The position numbers and the translations under genes were made by a program. Positions 30,881 through 34,537 of a stretch of 64,000 bases of DNA are shown here, piece by piece. The notes under the pieces are model-generated. The model was not told the DNA's origin and made no database searches. It saw only the letters and a program-made list of their open reading frames with translations. The stretch comes from Caulobacter vibrioides OR37 (GTDB lineage Bacteria; Pseudomonadota; Alphaproteobacteria; Caulobacterales; Caulobacteraceae), in NCBI RefSeq assembly GCF_000372645.1, contig NZ_APMP01000005.1:1-64000 (forward strand), given 5' to 3'. The stretch's first letter is position 1; each line of letters begins with the position of its first letter.

Positions 30881-31281
30881 GCCCCGACGGCCTTATGCTG
30901 TTCGATGGCGTCTGCCACCTGTGCGACGGCGCGGTCCGGACCGTTCTGCGGCTGGACCGCGCGGGCGTCGTCCGCTTCACGCCGATCCTTTCACCCTACG
31001 GCCGGAAGCTCGCCTTGACCCACGGCCTGGACCCCAACGCGCCCGAGAGTTTCCTATTCTTCGATCGCGGTCGCCCGCTGACCAAGACCGCCGCCGTCGC
31101 CGCGCTGTTGCGCAGACTGCCCGCGCCGTGGCGTTGGCTGGCCGTCGTCGACCGCCTGCCGCGCGGTCCCGCCGACGCCGCCTATGACTGGATCGCGGCC
31201 AACCGCTATCGGCTTCTGGGGAAGAGGGATCGCTGCCGGGTCCCGACGGACGAGCAACGAGCGCGGTTCATCCTGGACTAG
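30877..31281 (+). CDS. DCC-family thiol-disulfide oxidoreductase-like protein (DUF393)
   Basis: A 134-aa protein with the family motif LFDGVCHLCDGAVRTVL at residues 8-24; its DGVCxxC gives the DCC name and a CxxC redox pair. The remainder, with FLFFDRGRPLTKTAAVAALL near 62, is typical of DUF393. Start by ATG overlapping the upstream TGA (ATGA). Likely a redox-active or cargo-binding protein; actual substrate is unknown. It converges with bphP, whose stop is at 31278, so the 3' ends overlap by 4 bp. Confidence 0.8.
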   Translation: MSPDGLMLFDGVCHLCDGAVRTVLRLDRAGVVRFTPILSPYGRKLALTHGLDPNAPESFLFFDRGRPLTKTAAVAALLRRLPAPWRWLAVVDRLPRGPADAAYDWIAANRYRLLGKRDRCRVPTDEQRARFILD

Positions 31282-32258
31282 AAAAGCCCGGCCAAGGCCT
31301 CGGCGCTGTAGGGTTTCTGCAGCACGGGCGCGTCCTTGAAGCGGTCGGGAAACGCCGCGCTGTCGCCAAAGCCGGTGCCGAAGGCGAACGGCACGCCGGC
31401 GTCTTGCAGGGCCTTCGCGATCGGGAAGCTGGTCTCGTGACCCAGATTGACGTCCAGGATGGCGAAGGGCGGCATGTCCTCGGCCAGGGCGTCCAGGGCC
31501 TGCGCCACGCTGGAGGCCAGGGTGATCGACTTGACCCCCAGCCGGGTCAGCATGTCTTCGAGATCCAGCGCGATGATCATGTTGTCCTCGACCACCAGCA
31601 TCCGATCGGGCGCCCGCACCGGCGTCTCGGCGCGCCGCGCCGGCTTCACGGTCGCGACCACGCCCTCGCTGGTGACATAGCGGCCTGGGATGCGGATTCG
31701 GGCCTGGAAGCCCTCGGGCCGGTAATCGAGGCTGACCTCGCCATTCAGGTCATGCGGGATCGAGTGCTCGATGATGGTCGAGCCGAAGCCCCTCCGGGTC
31801 GGCGGTTTGACGGGCGGGCCGTCCCGCTCGCGCCAATCGATGATCAGGTCGCCCTTGGCGTCGCGGGTCCAGTCGATCCCGACCTGGCCGCGCTGGTCGC
31901 AAAGGGCGCCGTATTTCGCCGAGTTGGTCATCAGCTCGTGGATGACCAACGACAGGATCGAAAACGCGTCCGGCGCCAGGGCGATCGGCGCGCCGGTCAG
32001 CGTCACGCGCTCGGCCTTGTTCGACAGATAGGCCTCGGCCTCGGCGGTGATCAGATCGCTGAGCGCCCCCGGCCCCCATTGATGACGGGTGATCTGATCA
32101 TGGGCGCGGGCCAGGGCCTGGACCCGCCCGCCGACCACCTCGGCGAACTCCTCGACGCTGGCGACGCCGGAGCGGGTCTGACTAATCAGACCACGGATCA
32201 AACCCAGGATGTTGCGCACCCGGTGATTCAGTTCGGCGATCAGCAGTTCCTGACGCTG
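31278..32258 (-). pseudogene. bphP: HWE histidine kinase and receiver half of bacteriophytochrome, split by a frameshift
   Basis: This reading frame has the H-box AELNHRVRNILGLI, the N-box HELMTNSAKYGAL, the HWE-family W-x-E motif (IDWRERDG) and a C-terminal receiver domain (MLVVEDNMIIALD; phospho-acceptor Asp in AILDVNLG; Lys in VLQKPYS). It is in frame +1 relative to the upstream photosensory half. At 32258-32259 one extra base (CCAG where CAG would restore the frame) ends the sensor frame 75 bp downstream. The kinase half has no start or ribosome site of its own; a single-base deletion rejoins ...RAK-QRQELLIAELNHRVRN. Could be a real mutation or a sequencing or assembly error. Confidence 0.75.
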
Positions 32259-33813
32259 GTTTGGCGCGCTGGCGCTCCTCGTCGGCCAGATCGGTCAGCC
32301 GGAAGACGATCTCCAGAAGGCTGGCGCGCATACTCTCGGCCAGAGATCTCTCGACCACGGTCCACGGCCGGCTCTGGCCGCGCGTGGTCTCTTCCCAAGC
32401 CTCGAAGCTCTTGCGCGGCGTCAGGCGGTCGCCAAGCGGTCCGACCTGAACCAGCTTGGCCGGCTGGCCCGCCCAAACCACCGTCTGAGCCTCTTCCTTG
32501 CGAAAGAAGATCATGTAGTCGCGGGGGGCGCGAGACAGCGGCACGGCCATCATGCCGGCGGCCTTTGCGGCCCAGGCCGCCGCCGAGGGCATCAGAGCGC
32601 TGATCTCGCTGGTCGCGAAGACCGCGTGGGTGTCCTTCTCCCTCAGCAGACGGATCAGGCTATGGACGTCGCTGGCGTCAGGGGTGGAATCGCGCAGGGT
32701 CAGCCGCCCCTCGAGCCACAGGGCCAGACCGTCGCAGTGCACGAGACGACACAGATCGTCGAGATAGGGACTGAGGCTGTCGGCGCCCTGGTTGGCCTTG
32801 ACCACCGCATTCATCATGCGGTCGTGCAGATTGCGGGCCTCGGCCAGGCGCCGGGTCTCGACCTCGCGTTCGCGGCTTTCCAGGGTCAGGGAAAACAGCT
32901 GGCCGAAAAGTTCGGCGGCCGTGCGGCGCTCATAGCTGATGTGCTTGGGCGCGTAGTGGTGGCAGGCGAACAGACCCCACAGCTTGCCGTCGCGCAGGAT
33001 CGAGATCGACAGCGAGGCCGCCACCCCCATGTTGCGCAGATACTCGATGTGGATCGGCGAGACGGCGCGTAACATGCTCATGGACAGGTCCACCGGTTCG
33101 CCCGAGACGCTGACCTCGGGGACGATCGGCGAAACCTGGGCGTCGACATCGGCGATGATGCGCAGCCAGTTGCGTTCGTAGAGAGCGCGGGCCTGGACCG
33201 GAATGTCCGACGCCGGATAGCGCTGCCCAAGGAAGGAGCCGATGCCGGGCCGAACCGACTCGGCGATCACCTCTCCGGCCCCGTCGTGGCCGAAGCGATA
33301 GATCATCACCCGGTCGAACTCGGTCAGGGCCCGGACCTGACGGGCGGCCTCGTGGCAGAAGCCCTCGAAGTCGGGCCGCGCGACGATGCGCGCGGTCATT
33401 GAACGCACGGCCGAGGCGGCCTCGATCAGGGCGTCGGCAAGGCTGGGCTCGCCCTCGATGATCAGCAGGCGACCGGAATAGTGCAGGGCCAGATCGAAGT
33501 CCTCGCCGCCGTCGGTCAGCGGCACGCCGAACATCCGCTCGACCGCGTCGGCGCCGCGCAACACCTGCAAGCGCCCCCGGATCGCGTGGATGGCGTGGCC
33601 GCTCATCACCTGGGTCAACGGCTTGTCCAGCACGTCAGCAGGCGCCAAGCCCAGATAGCGCAGGGTCGAGGTCGAGGCGTGAACGATCACCCAGTCGGAA
33701 TTGACGGCCAGCAGGAAGCCGAACGGCTGCACCGACCCGAGAATATGGATCGGTTCGCGATCGCAGTTCGTCAGGTCGACCTCAAACCCGGTCATGGACG
33801 ACGGTTCGGACAT
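32182..33813 (-). CDS. bphP: bacteriophytochrome photosensory domains (truncated by frameshift)
   Basis: A 543-aa PAS-GAF-PHY red/far-red photoreceptor module. The biliverdin-attaching Cys is in DLTNCDREPIHILGS at about residue 17, followed by SVQPFGFLLAV. The GAF-domain contains YRFGHDGAGEVIAES, RYPASDIPVQARALYE and SPIHIEYLRNMGVAASLS, all typical of bacterial phytochromes. The last about 25 residues (KPASGTADRR...) are out of frame: the true kinase continues in another frame. It overlaps the upstream heme oxygenase gene by 32 bp (start 33813 within bphO's 3' end), the usual bphO-bphP operon. Confidence 0.85.
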   Translation of the reverse strand: MSEPSSMTGFEVDLTNCDREPIHILGSVQPFGFLLAVNSDWVIVHASTSTLRYLGLAPADVLDKPLTQVMSGHAIHAIRGRLQVLRGADAVERMFGVPLTDGGEDFDLALHYSGRLLIIEGEPSLADALIEAASAVRSMTARIVARPDFEGFCHEAARQVRALTEFDRVMIYRFGHDGAGEVIAESVRPGIGSFLGQRYPASDIPVQARALYERNWLRIIADVDAQVSPIVPEVSVSGEPVDLSMSMLRAVSPIHIEYLRNMGVAASLSISILRDGKLWGLFACHHYAPKHISYERRTAAELFGQLFSLTLESREREVETRRLAEARNLHDRMMNAVVKANQGADSLSPYLDDLCRLVHCDGLALWLEGRLTLRDSTPDASDVHSLIRLLREKDTHAVFATSEISALMPSAAAWAAKAAGMMAVPLSRAPRDYMIFFRKEEAQTVVWAGQPAKLVQVGPLGDRLTPRKSFEAWEETTRGQSRPWTVVERSLAESMRASLLEIVFRLTDLADEERQRAKPASGTADRRTESPGAQHPGFDPWSD

Positions 33814-34372
33814 TCAGACCCTGGGGCGAGGGGACAATCTCGAACGCATCCGAGAAACGGTTAAAGCCATATCGCGCGCCGGCCTGGATGGCGTCTGTCC
33901 GCGACCCGACTTTGGGTATGCTCTCCAGCCATGTAAGGAAATCGCGCCAGAGCGGCCGACCCTGACCGTGGGTCAGATAGGCTAGCGGGGGACCATCCAT
34001 GGCGCCGCGCGCCTGCCGCGCCAGGACGCGAGCGCCCAGACGCGAACCTTCCAGGGTGTAGAGCAGCCCGGCGCCGAAGTCCGGCGAGGGCACGAAGGCC
34101 GGCTCGAAGACGGGGACCTCCACGCCTAGAACGGCGAGATCGGCCGCCAGGGCGTCCCGCCGCGCGCGAACCGGCCAGTCCGGCAGCCAAGTCTGGACGC
34201 CGGCCCGCTCCAGAGCCAGCTCCAGCGGCGTCAGGGCGATCGCGGAGGCGAGCAGGAAAGCGGCGTAGCCGGCGGGCGTTTCAATCCGCCAGCCCGCGAC
34301 CCTGGCGTCGAGGATCGCGTGATCTTGCGCGGTGGCCTCGCGCAGTCGGCCTCTCAGAGACGATTCGGACAC
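33782..34372 (-). CDS. bphO: biliverdin-producing heme oxygenase
   Basis: Predicted 196-aa (212 aa from a TTG) heme oxygenase-like protein that degrades heme to biliverdin, the chromophore needed by the adjacent phytochrome. The N-terminal LRGRLREATAQDHAILDARV holds the proximal heme-ligand His, and FGAGLLYTLEGSRLGARVLA near residue 105 resembles the distal-helix Gly-rich stretch. The GTG start at 34372 is preceded by GGGGGGAAA, close to it; a TTG at 34420 is the alternative. The context, upstream of bphP with a 32-bp overlap, makes the role confident although sequence identity to canonical HO is limited. Confidence 0.85.
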   Translation of the reverse strand: MSESSLRGRLREATAQDHAILDARVAGWRIETPAGYAAFLLASAIALTPLELALERAGVQTWLPDWPVRARRDALAADLAVLGVEVPVFEPAFVPSPDFGAGLLYTLEGSRLGARVLARQARGAMDGPPLAYLTHGQGRPLWRDFLTWLESIPKVGSRTDAIQAGARYGFNRFSDAFEIVPSPQGLNVRTVVHDRV

Positions 34373-34537
34373 TTTCCCCCCGGGCGTATCGGACCCTGCG
34401 GGGATGCTGGGGCGAGACAACTGTTCCTAATGCGGATAGCGCCGTTCGGTTCCGCCCAAGCATGACGGTTCGGTAAGGTTTACCCAAAAGTCGCAGGTGC
34501 TAGGGTCTCGGTTCCCTTTTTGGAGGCTATCGCGCCC

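Follow-up and report, generated by a model that had tools for sequence, protein, structure and literature searches.

Inactivation of a bacteriophytochrome by a frameshift in one strain, with the gene intact in others, has been described in Rhodopseudomonas palustris CGA009, whose bphP1 is frameshifted and unexpressed and is matched by an intact sequence in strain 2.1.6; laboratory selection has been suggested as the cause (PMC6899989). That frameshift was confirmed experimentally, the repaired gene giving a far-red response, and the output of RpBphP1 is PAS9/HOS and not an HWE kinase (PMC6899989). The Agp2-type BphP of Agrobacterium joins a PAS-GAF-PHY core with a PRXSF motif to an HWE kinase output; the gene described here, which resembles it in sequence, differs in having its output half out of frame. 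The congeneric orthologues (L002–L014) share the domain order and, in most cases, a heme oxygenase gene directly upstream, but form unbroken ORFs of 844–850 residues without stops (983 in one, counted stop to stop).

The window analysed here is a 64,000-nucleotide stretch of Caulobacter vibrioides OR37 (contig NZ_APMP01000005.1, positions 1 to 64,000). Its bphP gene runs on the minus strand from 33813 to 31278 and carries one surplus base at the photosensor/kinase boundary, so that the 2,536 nt (845 × 3 + 1) are spanned by no single frame. We think it probable that the frameshift arose recently, in this strain alone, and cost an Agp2-like bacteriophytochrome (PAS-GAF-PHY, HWE kinase and receiver) its function; it is the same kind of event as that in CGA009 bphP1, in a different phytochrome type. 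The features of the locus are as follows.

33782–34420, minus strand: bphO-like heme oxygenase ORF upstream, with a 32-nt overlap with bphP (ORF list, pa-HO match).
32263–33813, minus strand: photosensory core PAS-GAF-PHY, 517 residues to the junction (Pfam; 90.7% protein identity to the G039 orthologue).
32260–32262, minus strand: AAA with the surplus base, AA in 13 of 13 congeneric orthologues (alignment column 1657).
32182–32259, minus strand: out-of-frame tail of the photosensory ORF, with TGA at its end (ORF list, translation).
31278–32258, minus strand: HWE histidine kinase and C-terminal receiver, in the other frame (Pfam, NCBIfam, comparison with relatives).
31278–32219, minus strand: longest ORF downstream that opens with a usual start codon, GTG 32219, past the phosphoacceptor His (ORF list).

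The minus-strand ORF from 33813 to 32182 encodes a full PAS_2, GAF and PHY photosensory core, and the HWE_HK and Response_reg matches fall in the downstream half; the two frames are one base apart, and sensor and kinase are not on one polypeptide. The photosensory frame holds to residue 517 (...ADEERQRA) and is followed by 26 unrelated residues, reading ...ADEERQRAK and then PASGTADRRTESPGAQHPGFDPWSD before the stop at 32182. Aligning the bphP region with 13 orthologues from same-genus genomes reveals a single indel between the halves, a surplus A in column 1657, which is the sole coding-region column holding a base in the window gene alone. The window has AAA at 32262–32260, any of the three being a possible insert. 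Relatives read GCC AAC CAG CGC CAG GAA (Ala-Asn-Gln-Arg-Gln-Glu) with minor codon variation (GCC AAC/AAT CAG at Ala-Asn-Gln, GCG AAC CAG in two), against GCC AAA CCA GCG TCA GGA in the window. Because 88–91% identity to relatives continues to the junction from both sides, in two different frames, the frame break is not due to chance. These results bear out the preliminary description of a bacteriophytochrome that is intact but for a frameshift of one base. The repair it proposed, CCAG to CAG at 32258–32259, does restore the correct frame but misplaces the base, the surplus being an A of AAA, 1–4 bases from the CC, and not a C. Nor is RAK-QRQ the normal junction context, as it had held: relatives read ERQRA-N-QRQELL, and deletion of the C would leave Lys for Asn.

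Comparison with sister genomes, which the same description had called for, shows no such break: in a search of 75 same-genus genomes, each of the 13 close relatives carries the orthologue in one uninterrupted frame, with photosensor identity to the window gene of 86–91%. From 109 photosensor loci of the genus and of GTDB genomes we drew those with an HWE domain no more than 150 nt from the photosensor, and the two lie in the same frame in 101 of 101 (L031 and L002 are apparently the same record, making the independent count slightly below 101). No short open frames were seen among the 109, and the exact junction string is absent from every other one of 173 loci. With the 13 orthologues unbroken and every HWE locus in one frame, the frameshift is private to this genome, and bphP, with a disabling lesion where relatives have an intact gene, is probably a recent strain-specific pseudogene. 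Bacteriophytochromes are patchy in the genus, with any match in 35 of the 75 genomes and up to four in some; relatives of the heme oxygenase occur in 32, and a plasmid search returned one distant Azospirillum match only.

The upstream half scores above cut-off for PF08446, PF01590 and PF00360 and retains the core motifs, including the Cys in NCDREPIH, PASDIP and PRKSF. Among solved structures, those closest to it are photosensory cores of about its length, the best being 6g1y (phmmer E 5.9e-125), which we take to be Agp2 from Agrobacterium. Since these relatives are about as long and the Cys is kept along with the PASDIP and PRKSF motifs, the upstream product should fold as a biliverdin-binding module. 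The gene also combines an HWE output with a Gly at PRXSF-8, features associated with bathy phytochromes though not exclusive to them, and most known bathy phytochromes carry HWE kinase output (PMC12362586); on these grounds, the intact orthologues may be bathy phytochromes.

In the downstream frame the HWE histidine kinase is clear (PF07536, 77.3 bits against a cut-off of 22.8). The C-terminal receiver matches PF00072 with an E value of 2.4e-5 but at 24.9 bits, below the curated cut-off of 30.2; the same region also matches NCBIfam PhyR/PRK13435 receiver models. Neither the kinase half nor any other part of the gene carries a further frame break. The kinase half is likewise free of a second stop. 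The phosphoacceptor His codon lies at 32225–32223, and no ATG, GTG or TTG precedes it in this frame, the first being GTG 32219. With no usual start ahead of the His, a working kinase is not expected, and reinitiation at GTG 32219 would yield a piece unable to autophosphorylate in the usual way. The genome holds 12 other HWE-kinase matches, all in open frames. The top-scoring models for the kinase half (31278–32258, minus strand) are blue-light LOV-type HWE kinases and PhyR-type receivers, which may point to a connection with general-stress-response phosphorelays.

The proposed course is that one A was inserted into a two-A run just upstream of the H-box. The product would then be at most a 543-residue photosensor, able to bind biliverdin but not to autophosphorylate, and the kinase/receiver half would go untranslated or be made only as a piece without the phosphoacceptor His. 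Light input would be cut off from the phosphorelay output, leaving far-red/red signalling through BphP off. The uncoupling of light sensing from kinase output put forward previously is in line with this expectation, the frames differing and no start standing before the His. The window gene has a terminal-branch dN/dS of 0.186, within the 0.05–0.36 of other leaves (Nei-Gojobori distances, three-point pairwise method); the terminal branch is long, so the ratio shows the break to be young only relative to that branch. Per-domain terminal estimates, being noisy for short branches, were given no weight. This ratio and the lack of a second lesion imply ordinary purifying selection for most of the gene's separate history, from which it follows that the lesion is recent, as had been suggested, or absent from the organism altogether.

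The second of these outcomes would mean an assembly or sequencing error, the true gene being intact with AA. It would account for a lone indel in a draft genome (4.43 Mb, 70 contigs, 100% complete), and for the absence of further decay under normal purifying selection, since an erroneously read intact gene looks alike. We compared stretches of the genome with the complete congeneric genome G012. Counting any open frame gave many shadow-ORF false positives, which a codon-position G+C filter removed. The comparison covered 163 matched coding-like ORFs, amounting to 55,602 residues or about 167 kb, and bphP was the one true frameshift in the set. The assembly is thus not generally indel-ridden: at such a background the 2.5-kb bphP would be expected to hold well below 0.1 frameshifts, too few for an error there to be predicted. 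Indel errors typically fall in long homopolymer runs, and AAA is a very short one. We consider an error unlikely. Other census candidates were rejected: an apparent second frameshift near base 113560 of contig 5 is an indel between two genes, and two more lie at the N-terminal ends of stop-to-stop frames, lack coding-type codon-position G+C and were taken for non-coding sequence ahead of the start codons.

Other readings would keep the gene in use. Programmed +1 frameshifting or phase variation, also raised in the preliminary description, would yield full-length protein part of the time, the sole point in its favour being that the frames rejoin on a one-base shift. Yet the AAA site is found in no relative, and a tract of three A's is neither a long homopolymer nor a tandem repeat. 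No slippery heptamer occurs, none of the 13 orthologues points to a conserved slippery site, nothing known to stimulate a +1 shift surrounds AAA-C, and RNA structure downstream of the junction is no stronger than in shuffles (z 0.59); we give this reading almost no credence. Function as two polypeptides, a photosensor and a separately initiated HWE kinase/receiver, would suit a downstream frame open over 338 codons with an in-frame GTG 32219 overlapping the upstream ORF. A product begun there, however, would lack the autophosphorylation site, and no orthologue is split, making this very improbable. Equally hard to credit is that the bacteriophytochrome has turned into a free-standing photosensory module that still binds biliverdin and acts, say as a pigment or a titrating partner, with no kinase output. 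Rather than a new kind of gene, the lesion looks like an ordinary single-strain loss of function or a mistake in sequencing. If confirmed, the strain-private loss would be a further single-strain frameshift loss of bacteriophytochrome output after R. palustris CGA009, and would suggest that bphP can be dispensable, matches being confined to 35 of 75 genomes of the genus. For red-light studies on this isolate, bphP needs checking first.

Upstream, the bphO-like ORF matches Pseudomonas aeruginosa pa-HO weakly (E 7.6e-8) and has no match in Pfam or NCBIfam; it is likely a heme oxygenase. The earlier view that biliverdin synthesis is retained is accordingly plausible as far as this gene goes. The ORF opens at TTG, but translation more likely starts at GTG 34372 (VSESSLRGRL), because stop codons interrupt some relatives' alignments through the upstream extension. 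Its 32-nt overlap with bphP (33782–33813, minus strand) suggests that the two are translationally coupled. The bphO match stops short of the bphP start in G035 and G065.
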